In this document: positions 25,537 through 39,213 of the stretch, one piece after another | Layout of the letters: every line of letters begins with the position of its first letter | How positions within the stretch are numbered: the first letter of the stretch is position 1 | Assembly: GCA_026417495.1 (NCBI GenBank) | Contig: JAOADD010000007.1 | Coordinates: forward strand, 1 to 47,740 | Origin: Ignavibacteria bacterium | Lineage (GTDB): Bacteria > Bacteroidota > Ignavibacteria > Tepidaquicellales > Tepidaquicellaceae | Length of the DNA: 47,740 nt | Direction of reading: 5' to 3' | The notes under the pieces: generated by a model | The model's input: the letters and a program-made list of their open reading frames with translations, nothing else | What the model was told of the DNA's origin: nothing | Databases searched by the model: none | Position numbers and translations under genes: made by a program

Positions 25537-25609
25537 GCTGGCATAGCTCAGTTGGTAGAGCAGTTGATTTGTAATCAACCGGTCGGGGGTTCAAGTCCCT
25601 CTGTCAGCT
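25537..25609 (+). tRNA. tRNA-Thr (anticodon UGU)
   Basis: A 73-base cloverleaf. The acceptor arms GCTGGCA and TGTCAGC pair with one G-T, the D arm is AGCTCAGTTGGTAGAGC, the anticodon stem is GTTGA/TCAAC with loop TTTGTAA (anticodon TGT at 25570-25572), and the T arm contains GGTTCAAGTCC. The discriminator is T and the CCA tail is not encoded. UGU reads ACA and related threonine codons. Confidence 0.95.
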
Positions 25610-31630: not shown

Positions 31631-31703
<73 letters not shown>

Positions 31704-33779: not shown

Positions 33780-35081
33780 ATGAAAAATGCACATTTTCTC
33801 TTATTTGCAGTATTCTTATTGTCAATAATAATGTTTTTTTCTTGTACAAAAGATTCTGAACAGCTTAAAAGTGAATTAATCCCTATTGAGATTACAGATA
33901 TAAAGGAATCTCCGAATGATTTACTTAGTGTAGATTTTCAGTTTTTCTATAAAGAATTATCATCAGCAGGTGAATGGATTGAAATTGATGCAAAGAAATT
34001 AGGAATCAACTTAAATACAACTACGTCAGAAAATTCTTTGGGAAATTTTCTCTCAGATATTTTAGGTGTAAAATATGCATATGCTCAAACGGGGGAACAA
34101 ATTTTTAACCTTTTTGTTTGGCGACCATCTAATGAACTCGTGGGAGATATGATGAAGGAAACAAAAGAATATATTCCTTTTAATAATGGTCAGTGGGTGT
34201 ATACAGATGAAGGTTGGTATTTTAAAGCAAACACATCTCAGGAAGAATTAACAAGCCATTATGGTAGGTGGACTCAGGATGAAGAATTAGGTTGGGTTTG
34301 GTTACCTGGTAAAACATATTCACCTGCCTGGGTTGACTGGCGACAAAATGATGACTATGTCGCTTGGGCTCCTATTCCACCTGGAAAATACATTGAAAAT
34401 GAATCAATTAAAATTGAAGATGTCAGTGAAAACAAATATACAATTGTTGAGAAAAAACATTTAATAGAACCATCTGTATACAAGTATAGGTATCAATATG
34501 TTGAAAACAAGAACAAGATTATGATTAAAGAAATGACAAAAACAGATGGTCTTATAGTTAAAGACAAAAAAGTAATAAATAAAGGGCCTGATATAACAGA
34601 AATAGAAAAGAAAACTGGTAAAAAAATAGAGCAAGTAAAAATAAATAAGGTGAATAAGAAAGAAGAATCTGGATTAAAAGGTAACTCACTTAATGTTTTT
34701 ACTCCTGAATTAAAAAAATCAAGAGAGGTAAGAAAAGAACCAATATCAAAACCTGAAAAACTTGTTTCCTATAAGGATGCTAAAAAGATTACAAAAGAGG
34801 AGAAAGAGAAACTGAAAGCAGAAGAGAAAATTGAGAAAAAAGAGGAGAAAGAAACTAAAAAACAGGAGAAATTAGAAGATAAACAGTTAAAGAAAGAACA
34901 AAAGAAGGAGGAGAAAGAAATAAAGAATAAAGAAAAACAAGAGACAAAAGAAATGAAAAAGGAAGAAAAATCAAAGAAGAAAGAAGATAAACAGGTAAAA
35001 GAAAAGGGTAAAGAGAAACGAGATGATGATAAAACCAAGGGAAAGAAAGACGATGATAAAAAGAAAAACAAAAAAAATTGA
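33780..35081 (+). CDS. DUF6600-like lipoprotein with long lysine/glutamate-rich tail
   Basis: The 433-residue lipoprotein has signal and lipobox ending MFFSC (Cys22). Residues about 130-200 resemble the DUF6600 repeat (HYGRWTQDEELGWVWLPG, YSPAWVDWRQNDDYVAWAPI), a Trp-rich beta module often exported. From about residue 300 the chain turns into a highly charged Lys/Glu/Asp region: the last 100 residues are almost only these, an expected long helix or disordered tail that could reach into the periplasm and bind an acidic polymer. The AAA/GAA/AAG-rich DNA of this tail makes a false minus-strand frame that is not a gene. Confidence 0.72.
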   Translation: MKNAHFLLFAVFLLSIIMFFSCTKDSEQLKSELIPIEITDIKESPNDLLSVDFQFFYKELSSAGEWIEIDAKKLGINLNTTTSENSLGNFLSDILGVKYAYAQTGEQIFNLFVWRPSNELVGDMMKETKEYIPFNNGQWVYTDEGWYFKANTSQEELTSHYGRWTQDEELGWVWLPGKTYSPAWVDWRQNDDYVAWAPIPPGKYIENESIKIEDVSENKYTIVEKKHLIEPSVYKYRYQYVENKNKIMIKEMTKTDGLIVKDKKVINKGPDITEIEKKTGKKIEQVKINKVNKKEESGLKGNSLNVFTPELKKSREVRKEPISKPEKLVSYKDAKKITKEEKEKLKAEEKIEKKEEKETKKQEKLEDKQLKKEQKKEEKEIKNKEKQETKEMKKEEKSKKKEDKQVKEKGKEKRDDDKTKGKKDDDKKKNKKN

Positions 35082-35139: not shown

Positions 35140-35171
35140 TTTGAAAAAAAGTTGAATTATTTTTATTTTTG
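35140..35171 (+). promoter_or_regulatory. Promoter of metK riboswitch transcript, Bacteroidetes type
   Basis: TTTG (35140-35143) and TATTTTTG (35164-35171) are 20 bases apart and match the Bacteroidetes consensus. Transcription would begin about 5 bases later, right at the first base of the riboswitch P1 helix (35176). Confidence 0.7.
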
Positions 35172-35175
35172 TATA

Positions 35176-35249
35176 GCATCAAGAGTATCAAATTTCAATA
35201 GAAATTTGATCGGCAACCGAGGCGAGACCCCACGGTGCTAAAATGATGC
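35176..35249 (+). promoter_or_regulatory. SAM-I/SAM-IV-clan riboswitch aptamer
   Basis: P1 is GCATCA (35176-35181) with TGATGC (35244-35249). P2 is a perfect 9-bp stem, ATCAAATTT (35187-35195) with AAATTTGAT (35202-35210), loop CAATAG. CGGCAACC (35211-35218) and CGGTGCTAA (35233-35241) are the SAM-I clan core, bracketing P3 (ACCG/CGGT). P1 closes directly after GGTGCTAA, so the P4 of classic SAM-I is absent, as in SAM-IV and SAM-I/IV. The gene behind it is SAM synthetase, so SAM feedback control is expected. Exact subclass is inferred. Confidence 0.82.
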
Positions 35250-35271
35250 GCGGAAAAATTCCGAAAAAAGT

Positions 35272-35299
35272 CTCTCAATAAGAAACCGCTTATTGAGAG
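35272..35299 (+). promoter_or_regulatory. Antiterminator hairpin of the metK leader
   Basis: CTCTCAATAAG (35272-35282) pairs perfectly over 11 bp with CTTATTGAGAG (35289-35299), loop AAACCG. Its right arm uses bases 35289-35294 that are also needed for the terminator stem, so the two cannot form together. That it is the ON state is inferred. Confidence 0.7.
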
Positions 35300-35331
35300 C
35301 GTTGTCAATGCTTGAAATAAGCGGTTTTTTT
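35283..35331 (+). terminator. Rho-independent terminator of the metK riboswitch
   Basis: AAACCGCTTATT (35283-35294) pairs with AATAAGCGGTTT (35316-35327) over 12 perfect base pairs, followed by a T run to 35331. It lies 37 bases before the metK ATG and would stop transcription when SAM is abundant. Confidence 0.85.
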
Positions 35332-35368: not shown

Positions 35369-36499
35369 ATGAATAGAGAATATTCTTTTACATCAGAATC
35401 AGTCTCAAATGGACATCCTGATAAAATTGCAGACCAAATATCAGATGCAATACTTGATGCTTACCTTAGAGAAGATAATAATGCAAAAGTTGCATGTGAA
35501 GTTTTAATTACTGATAATCTCATAGTAATTTCTGGTGAATTTAAGAAGAATTCACCTAATTCAATAGATGTTGAAAAAATTGCGAGAGATGTTCTTAGAG
35601 ATATAGGATATGAAAAAAGATGGGGCTTTGATCCTGATGAGTGTAAAATTCTATCGATTATTAAAGATCAATGTGAGGAAATAACAAAAAGTGTCGAGAA
35701 AGGGGAAGGAAAAATTGGAGCAGGAGACCAAGGTCTTATGTTTGGATATGCTACGAATGAAACGCCAGAATATATGCCTTTGCCTTTAGTTCTTGCTCAT
35801 AGACTTATGATTGAACATTATAAATTAAGACGAACTTTGGGCTTTGAGTGGCTTGGGCCTGATGCTAAGTCGCAAGTTACAGTTAGATATAAAAATAATA
35901 AACCACTTTATGTAGAAAGTGTAGTGCTATCAACATTGCATGTAGAATCTTATGAGAATAAAGTGGAAAAACTCATTCGTGAACATTTAATAGATAAAGT
36001 TATTCCCAAAGAAATTCGTTCGGAAAATTTCGAATTATTTATTAATCCCGGTGGATCATTTACACAAGGGGGTCCAAAAACTGATACTGGTTTAACAGGT
36101 AGAAAAATTGTTGTTGACACTTATGGTGGTTTCTGTCCAAATGGTGGGGGATGTTTTTCTGGAAAAGATGCAACGAAAGTTGACAGATCAGCTTCTTATA
36201 TGGCAAGATTTCTTGCTAAAAATATTGTTGCTTCTGGTTATGCAGAAAAATGTTCGATTCAAATTGCTTACGCAATTGGGCAGACAAAACCAGTATCCTT
36301 TATGGTAAATTTCCATAATACAGGTAAAGGTAGGATTGATGAGCAGACGATGGAAAAGATAATAATTGATAAGTATGATTTATCCCCTAGTGGTATAATT
36401 AATAAATTAAAACTAAGAACCCCAATATATCAAAAGACAGCAGCTTTTGGACACTTTGGTAGGGAAGAATTCGAATGGGAAAAATTTGAGGAGATCTAA
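35369..36499 (+). CDS. metK: S-adenosylmethionine synthetase
   Basis: The 376-residue enzyme is typical for MetK (about 380-400). Motifs: FTSESVSNGHPDKIADQISD (ATP and methionine binding), GAGDQGLMFGYATNETPEYM (the signature hexapeptide region and K+ site), GGSFTQGGPKTDTGLTGRKI (P-loop-like phosphate-binding GGPKxDTGLTGRKIxVDTYGG) and GGGCFSGKDATKVDRSASYMAR. It makes SAM from methionine and ATP. Regulation is visible: a SAM-I/IV-like riboswitch with a terminator lies upstream, and a Bacteroidetes-type promoter before it. No Shine-Dalgarno is seen before the ATG. Single-gene transcript followed by AT-rich DNA. Confidence 0.97.
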   Translation: MNREYSFTSESVSNGHPDKIADQISDAILDAYLREDNNAKVACEVLITDNLIVISGEFKKNSPNSIDVEKIARDVLRDIGYEKRWGFDPDECKILSIIKDQCEEITKSVEKGEGKIGAGDQGLMFGYATNETPEYMPLPLVLAHRLMIEHYKLRRTLGFEWLGPDAKSQVTVRYKNNKPLYVESVVLSTLHVESYENKVEKLIREHLIDKVIPKEIRSENFELFINPGGSFTQGGPKTDTGLTGRKIVVDTYGGFCPNGGGCFSGKDATKVDRSASYMARFLAKNIVASGYAEKCSIQIAYAIGQTKPVSFMVNFHNTGKGRIDEQTMEKIIIDKYDLSPSGIINKLKLRTPIYQKTAAFGHFGREEFEWEKFEEI

Positions 36500-36687: not shown

Positions 36688-39213
36688 ATGAAAAACTCAA
36701 AATTTACAATTATTAGTTTATTAATCCTTTGTGGGTTATTTCTATTCAGTTTCACCGATATGAGTGAAACGAAATATATGATGGTGAATGAAAAAGTTAT
36801 TAAAAGATTAAGTGATGGTGCATTGTATCAAAAAGGTATGATTAATATTAAGTTTAAAACTGATATAAGACTTATGGATAAACAACATTTTGGCATTGCT
36901 TCTTTAGATGAGTACTTAAACGATAAAAATGTTGTTCTAATTGAACAAAGGCATCCACTTAATCCAAATATATCCAAACGAAAAATTGGGGATGAAGAAC
37001 TAGCAAAAATTTATAAGATAGAATATAAAGCAGAAAAAGATCCAGGTGAATTTGCTGCAGAACTATATAACAGGAATAGTTCATTACTCGACTGGGCAGA
37101 GCCTGACTATGTAATGGAGGCAGATTTCATTCCTAATGATCCATCAATTAGTTTGCAGTGGTTCTTAAATAAAGTGAGTGCTTATTCTGGTTGGGATTTG
37201 AATCAAGGAGATACGAATATGGTAATTGGTATGGTTGATTCTGGTAGTGACCTTGATCATCCAGATTTGGCAGCAAATATTAAATATAATTATTTGGAAA
37301 ATCCAACAAATAATATTGATGATGATATGAATGGATATATAGACGATTGGCGAGGATGGGATTTTGCTGGTGCTGATTATCAAAATTTAAGTCAGGATAA
37401 TGATCCAAATATTTATGGTCCCAATTGCGACCACGGCTCTCACACTTCAGGATGTGCATCTGAAGTTACCAATAATGGAGTTGGTGGAGCGGGGATTGGA
37501 TTTAAATGTAAACTTTTGATTTGCAAACATGGAGCTGATAATGATTATACTAATGGTGGTACTTCTTATTTATATAATACCAATTTGGGAATGATTTATG
37601 TTTACCAGAATGGTGGGAAAATTATGAATTGTAGTTTTGGTAGTTCAACTTACAGTGCTTATACTCAAACAATAGTAACAAACGCATGGTATAACGGATG
37701 TATCGTAGTTGCTTCTGCTGGAAATTCTGGAACTAATACACCACGGTATCCTGCTTCTTATGACTATGCAGTTTCCGTTGCTGCTACTGATCAAAATGAT
37801 TATAAAGCATGGTTTTCTAATTACCATTCAACAGTTGATGTATGTGCTCCAGGTGTAAGTATATATAGTACTTTATGGAACAATACATATCAATATTATG
37901 ATGGTACTTCTATGTCTGCTCCAATTACCTCGGGAACATTAGCTCTAATAAGATGTAAGTTCCCAACTATGACTTGTGAGCAAGCAGTAAATAAATTAAA
38001 AGCTGGTGTTGATAGTATTTATAATTTAAATCCAAGTTATATTGGTCTTTTAGGGACAGGAAGAATAAATGTTCTTAAATGCTTGACTCCTTCTAGCGGT
38101 ACCTTACAAGCAGATTTCACTGCAAATCAAACAAATATTTCTCCAGGTCAAAGTGTAAACTTTACAGATTTGTCCACAGGTGGTCCAACAAGTTGGAACT
38201 GGTCATTCCCTGGTGGTAATCCTTCATCATCTAATCAACAACATCCACAGAATATTGTTTATAATACAATTGGCTCTTATGATGTAACATTACAAGTTAG
38301 CAATGGAAGTAATACGAGCACTTTGACTAAACCAAATTATATTAATGTTAGTCAGGGAAGTGTATATAAGTTATTTGAATCTTTTGAGAATGCATCTTTC
38401 CCACCATCGGGATGGATTAAAATTAATCCACTTGGAGGTCAATCAACCGGATGGGAAAGGCAAGTAAATGGTGTTACACCTGTTCCAGGATTCCAAGGTG
38501 GTGTTCTATTCACTCCTCCTGGTGGTGGTAATGCAATGGCTTTTTGTAATTATATTACAGGTAGCCCAAATGGTGGTAGCTCTGGTGCTTGCGATCAATG
38601 GTTGATAACTCCGCAAATTCTAAATATTCAACCTAGTGATTCTCTTACATTCTGGTTAAGAAAATTTGGTGCTTATGTGGATAATCTTTATGTAAGAATT
38701 TCTACTACAACACCAACTGTTGCTGCAATGAATGTTACTGTAGCAAATTTAACATTCTCTGTCTCAGATTCAGGATGGATGATGTATAAATATAATATCG
38801 GTGCTCTTGTTCCCGCTGGTTCAAATATCTATATAGGATTTAGAGAATATGTTTCAAATGTTGTTATTGATGGTGCTTCATTCTCACTTGACCTTGTTAG
38901 AGTTACCGGACAAACATCTGGAATTACCATAAATCATGGCGAGATTCCGACAACTTACATTCTTGAACAGAATTATCCAAATCCATTTAATCCCATCACA
39001 AATATAAAATTTGGGATTCCATCAGCTACTAATGTAAAACTCGTTGTTTATGACATAACTGGTAAAGAAATAGCAATTTTATTAAATGAATTTAAGCAAG
39101 CGGGTACATATACATATTCATTCGATGGTTCTGCATTAGCAAGTGGTGTATATTTCTATCGTTTAATGGCTGGCAATTTTGTAGATACAAAGAGAATGAT
39201 AATTGTTAAATAG
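36688..39213 (+). CDS. Secreted S8 (subtilisin-like) peptidase with PKD and T9SS sorting domain
   Basis: The 841-residue protein has a signal peptide (FTIISLLILCGLFLFSFT), then an inhibitor-like propeptide (about 40-130). The catalytic domain has Asp184 in GMVDSGSDLDHP, His249 in DHGSHTSG and Ser408 in DGTSMSAP. A PKD domain (about 474-555, VNFTDLSTGG), then a jelly-roll of the choice-of-anchor J type (about 564-745, GACDQWLITPQI) follow. The last 85 residues (LEQNYPNPFNPITNIKFGI ... GVYFYRLMAG, FVDTKRMIIVK) are a type A T9SS C-terminal signal, so it is exported by type IX secretion. A terminator follows at 39236. It likely degrades extracellular protein. Confidence 0.94.
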   Translation: MKNSKFTIISLLILCGLFLFSFTDMSETKYMMVNEKVIKRLSDGALYQKGMINIKFKTDIRLMDKQHFGIASLDEYLNDKNVVLIEQRHPLNPNISKRKIGDEELAKIYKIEYKAEKDPGEFAAELYNRNSSLLDWAEPDYVMEADFIPNDPSISLQWFLNKVSAYSGWDLNQGDTNMVIGMVDSGSDLDHPDLAANIKYNYLENPTNNIDDDMNGYIDDWRGWDFAGADYQNLSQDNDPNIYGPNCDHGSHTSGCASEVTNNGVGGAGIGFKCKLLICKHGADNDYTNGGTSYLYNTNLGMIYVYQNGGKIMNCSFGSSTYSAYTQTIVTNAWYNGCIVVASAGNSGTNTPRYPASYDYAVSVAATDQNDYKAWFSNYHSTVDVCAPGVSIYSTLWNNTYQYYDGTSMSAPITSGTLALIRCKFPTMTCEQAVNKLKAGVDSIYNLNPSYIGLLGTGRINVLKCLTPSSGTLQADFTANQTNISPGQSVNFTDLSTGGPTSWNWSFPGGNPSSSNQQHPQNIVYNTIGSYDVTLQVSNGSNTSTLTKPNYINVSQGSVYKLFESFENASFPPSGWIKINPLGGQSTGWERQVNGVTPVPGFQGGVLFTPPGGGNAMAFCNYITGSPNGGSSGACDQWLITPQILNIQPSDSLTFWLRKFGAYVDNLYVRISTTTPTVAAMNVTVANLTFSVSDSGWMMYKYNIGALVPAGSNIYIGFREYVSNVVIDGASFSLDLVRVTGQTSGITINHGEIPTTYILEQNYPNPFNPITNIKFGIPSATNVKLVVYDITGKEIAILLNEFKQAGTYTYSFDGSALASGVYFYRLMAGNFVDTKRMIIVK

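Follow-up and report, generated by a model that had tools for sequence, protein, structure and literature searches.

The analysed window is a stretch of 47,740 nucleotides, one contig of the 2.19-Mb genome of an Ignavibacteria bacterium. Its plus strand carries metK, the gene for S-adenosylmethionine synthetase (35369-36499, 376 aa; TIGR01034, 504.5 bits with a cut-off of 309.4 bits), which is the next gene directly downstream of a match to the Rfam SAM-I/IV model RF01725. This match (35171-35279, plus strand) covers the full length of the model (positions 1-99) with 60.9 bits and E 1e-7, well over the gathering score of 41.1 bits, and bears out the sequence-only reading of this DNA, which had placed a SAM-clan switch before metK and pointed to the Rfam models of this clan as a check. 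A genome-wide Rfam model search found no second RF01725 site. We are confident that the metK leader, with metK as the proposed regulated gene, represents a SAM-I/IV family riboswitch turning metK off by transcription termination; by analogy with the family, transcription of metK would very probably be stopped when SAM is plentiful.

Upstream of the leader lies an open reading frame of 433 aa (33780-35081), the product of which begins like a signal peptide and is very rich in Lys/Glu in its C-terminal part; no NCBIfam match was found for it. A subtilisin-like protease that is secreted and carries both a choice-of-anchor J domain and a sorting tail for type IX secretion is encoded at 36688-39213, and two tRNA genes occupy positions 25537-25609 and 31631-31703. 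A possible promoter, TTTG-N20-TATTTTTG, is located at 35140-35171 of the plus strand as a weak match to TTTG-N20-TAnnTTTG, which we take to be the Bacteroidota-type promoter pattern; this pattern has three matches on the plus strand of the window vs 1.4 expected per strand, that is, weakly above chance. If used, this promoter would possibly place the transcription start at approximately the 5' end of the P1 helix. The sigma-70 promoter scan remained at chance level (11 vs 10.3).

The aptamer is closed by P1, in which GCATCA (35176-35181) pairs with TGATGC (35244-35249), and contains P2 (35187-35210), a simple hairpin of 10 bp (35187-35196 with 35201-35210) having no internal loop, as is characteristic of RF01725. 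P3 (35211-35239) carries the SAM-pocket sequence GGCAACC ... GGTGC within the core CGGCAACC, starting at 35211, and GGTGCTAA, starting at 35234, and has the loop CGAGAC (35223-35228); all of the conserved pocket sequences of RF01725 (AAGAG, GGCAACC, and GGTGC) are present. Located 3' of P1, as in other RF01725 members, are the P5 hairpin CGGAA-AAA-TTCCG (35251-35263; 35251-35255 with 35259-35263) and the second strand of the pseudoknot PK-2, where GTCTC (35270-35274) pairs with GAGAC of the P3 loop (35224-35228). The fold of the whole leader has z = -6.66 relative to dinucleotide shuffles, and none of the 200 shuffles was equally stable. The sequence-only reading had recognised the clan core, the P1 of 6 bp, the lack of P4, and the uninterrupted P2, although this hairpin was given as 9 bp rather than 10 bp, and P5 was absent from it. 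Its figure of 74 bases is correct as the P1-to-P1 span; the aptamer does not end at 35249, however, since P5 and PK-2 belong to the fold, and the functional aptamer therefore runs to approximately 35274 (about 99 nt).

The view that this aptamer has one of the shortest layouts proved wrong within RF01725. Among 46 members with a recognisable P1, the P1-to-P1 span varies from 58 to 76 nt (median 63), and 43 of them are shorter than the window's 74 nt, which is thus near the top of the range and excludes an ultra-compact aptamer. P4 is missing in 44 of these 46 members, as judged from linkers too short to hold it, and the window follows the same pattern.

The SAM-I/IV family (SAM-I-IV-variant, RF01725) was described by Weinberg et al. 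2010 as having P2 without an internal loop (PMC2864571). Its crystal structure is 4L81, and the crystallised RNA, the sequence of which is given in PMC5393176, carries an ACGGAC/GUCCGU complementarity that is the counterpart of PK-2. The family, the missing P2 internal loop, PK-2, and the 3D structure are all published (PMC2864571, PMC5393176, PMC6890682), and the metK leader is an additional member of this known family with a legible attenuator. It shares with RF01725 the core, P1, the uninterrupted P2, P3, and P5, as well as PK-2 joining the P3 loop to the strand after P5 and the location before a SAM-pathway gene, while the crystallised RNA differs from it in possessing a P4 hairpin. PK-2 joined to P5, the lack of P4, and the same ligand core are also found in SAM-IV (RF00634), where, unlike the window, P2 is split into P2a/P2b with PK-1 (PMC6890682). 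The likeness to SAM-I (RF00162) consists in the ligand core and in the attenuator logic with an antiterminator and a terminator; the window has neither the P4 helix nor the internal loop or kink-turn in P2, and its link to the expression platform is PK-2, not P1. Neither RF00162 nor RF00634 gave a match at E <= 0.001 when the whole genome was searched, which rules out a classic SAM-I or SAM-IV identity.

The pocket sequences also bear on the nature of the ligand. SAM-clan aptamers with a changed ligand exist, and one of them, the spermidine-sensing SAM-I variant altered in J1/2 and in the internal loop of P3, has been found before a metK gene (PMC10853860). A changed ligand is very improbable for our leader: AAGAG, GGCAACC, and GGTGC are unaltered in comparison with the SAM-binding members, being identical to the published SAM-I construct, while GGCAACC and GGTGC are identical to the SAM-I/IV construct as well (PMC5393176). 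The spermidine-type variant itself is ruled out because the J1/2 and P3 internal-loop positions fit the SAM-binding consensus. SAM as the ligand, together with the direction of switching, is suggested by the family to which the aptamer belongs.

RF01725 was detected in 3/3 genomes examined of the genus, 6/29 genomes of the family, 13/294 genomes of the class sample, and 34/395 genomes of the phylum sample, and also in named genomes of Polynucleobacter, other Burkholderiaceae, and Flavobacteriaceae; the same riboswitch is present in CP054675.1 (Ignavibacteria bacterium isolate Ch128a). Across 19 members, 91% of the cells in P1/P3 are paired, double-sided changes occur at 8 of the 14 pairs, and the covariation score is 0.429 vs 0.150 in shuffles and <= 0.130 in slid controls. 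Since the MAFFT alignment (A1) was out of register for P2, P5, and PK-2, these elements were judged by separate folds and a swap test. In almost every one of the 19 members, P2 and P5 re-form as hairpins from other sequences, although P5 does not do so in L062. PK-2 covaries among 39 distinct members: the score between a member's own loop and tail averages 10.65 vs 8.23 when they are swapped between members, and 0/1000 swaps reach the observed value, although this does not represent an exact probability because related sequences are not independent. The paired strands are GAGAC/GTCTC in the window, AGCCGGAA/TTCTGGCT in L003, CCAAG/CTTGG in L004, TCCAGGA/TCTTGGA in L007, and AACTCG/CGAGTT in L059; in a few members (e.g., L033b and L081), PK-2 was not seen by the simple pairing score. 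The covariation by which the sequence-only reading had proposed to judge the aptamer stems is therefore present in P1 and P3, and the re-formed P2 and P5 hairpins and the covarying PK-2 agree with it.

Between the aptamer and metK, a predicted intrinsic terminator and a competing antiterminator are located. The antiterminator hairpin (35272-35299; 11 bp, -13.3 kcal/mol alone) is formed by CTCTCAATAAG (35272-35282) and CTTATTGAGAG (35289-35299), while the terminator (35280-35331) has a core of 12 bp, extendable up to 15 bp, between AAACCGCTTATT (35283-35294) and AATAAGCGGTTT (35316-35327), with an apical stem of 35297-35303 and 35307-35313 and a T7 run at 35325-35331. The CTTATT sequence (35289-35294) is common to the 3' arm of the antiterminator and the 5' arm of the terminator, and the last 3 nt of PK-2 (35272-35274) are at the same time the first 3 nt of the antiterminator, so that three helices overlap. 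The terminator/antiterminator reading given earlier, including the lengths of both stems and the CTTATT shared by them, holds. On the minus strand, the antiterminator hairpin (35299-35272) reads as a terminator followed by ACTTTTTT, which is complementary to the A-rich linker. We saw no gene on the minus strand that ends at this point, and this match is probably a coincidence.

No other fold of the full-length leader comes near the terminator in stability, as would also be the case if the terminator acted independently of the aptamer and the RF01725 match were a decayed relic. We consider such decay extremely unlikely because the match is of full length and well over the threshold, the pocket is intact, PK-2 covaries, and the aptamer is kept in both other species examined from this genus as well as more broadly across the class.

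The preferred reading, a functional riboswitch ending in an attenuator, needs a connection between the aptamer and the antiterminator, which the sequence-only reading left unexplained because it missed PK-2 and P5. The elements are synthesised in the order P1-P2-P3-P1', P5, the PK-2 3' strand (35270-35274), the antiterminator 5' arm, the terminator 5' arm, the terminator 3' arm, and T7. At low SAM, the region 35272-35299 would form the 11-bp antiterminator holding the terminator 5' arm, resulting in read-through into metK. In the presence of SAM, the P1/P3 pocket would close and PK-2 (35224-35228 with 35270-35274) would be stabilised, taking the basal bases 35272-35274 from the antiterminator and leaving only an 8-bp remnant; the weakened antiterminator would then give way to the apical stem of the terminator and next to its main stem, transcription being stopped at T7 and metK turned off.

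Folding of the growing transcript, in which 35270-35274 were blocked to mimic PK-2, is consistent with this scheme. The antiterminator has approximately -14.6 kcal/mol with these bases free vs -7.2 kcal/mol with them blocked. When they are blocked, the apical stem becomes possible once 35312 is made, that is, earlier, because bases 35297-35299 are freed; as long as the antiterminator is intact, takeover by the terminator has to wait until approximately 35324, just before the T run. Against the scheme, PK-2 and the antiterminator have only 3 nt in common and the 8-bp remnant could coexist with PK-2, so that the two exclude each other only in part and would have to do so kinetically. The argument is also kinetic because, once the leader is complete, the terminator is the most stable fold whether or not 35270-35274 are blocked. 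Judging from this anatomy, the kinetic link from the aptamer to the terminator through PK-2 is probable.

The usual SAM-I scheme suggests another connection for the same aptamer, in which the stability of P1 drives the switch as in classic SAM-I attenuators and PK-2 is only a structural brace; in a SAM-I variant, the right shoulder of P1 does compete with the antiterminator (PMC10853860). For the metK leader, we regard this scheme as unlikely: the antiterminator 5' arm begins 23 nt beyond the end of the P1 3' strand (35272 vs 35249), and PK-2 is the only aptamer element overlapping the antiterminator. The P1 3' strand was also rejected as the switching strand because no fold examined pairs it with the antiterminator region. 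The overlap with PK-2 explains how SAM binding could reach the terminator though P1 does not touch the antiterminator.

The PK-2/antiterminator overlap recurs with different sequences in L002, L004, L016, L023, and, weakly, L003, of which L002 is not independent because it is nearly identical to the window; some antiterminators are weak (-3.9 kcal/mol in L003 and -1.6 kcal/mol in L058). We find it fairly probable that SAM-I/IV riboswitches of Ignavibacteria work through PK-2, the 3' strand of which doubles as the antiterminator 5' arm while both sequences vary. A terminator is lacking in many of the other RF01725 members compared from the phylum, so this platform is not a feature of the family. 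In Polynucleobacter and other Burkholderiaceae (L031, L046, L049, and L056), a short terminator begins only a few bases downstream of the PK-2 3' strand; no antiterminator was seen in L049 and L056, the two folds readable in full, and these four leaders may use a different mode of switching.

Five metX/metY-type leaders of the class (L004, L007, L016, L023, and L058) contain a SAM-I/IV aptamer with a terminator followed by a SAM-II-like aptamer, and a further terminator-like hairpin with a T run lies between the latter and the gene. The RF00521 matches in these leaders (30.1-33.0 bits, E 4e-4 to 3e-3) are below the gathering score of 36, and no RF00521 match was obtained in the genome of the window. 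This tandem is not a new arrangement, as SAM-II after SAM-I/IV was reported previously in two examples and the reverse order in seven (PMC9481103), and the five leaders extend it.

The presented analysis leaves the catalogue of riboswitch classes unchanged. According to Trausch et al. 2014 (PNAS), SAM reportedly stabilises PK-2, which is said to be a part of the regulatory switch; hence, any novelty would be confined to the attenuator form. If the proposed mechanism is true, the driving element of this attenuator is a peripheral pseudoknot and not P1. The analysis places metK of a little-studied group under probable feedback control by SAM, and the metK leader is a compact natural example in which the pseudoknot, antiterminator, and terminator are readable from the sequence, which makes it useful for testing pseudoknot-driven attenuation.
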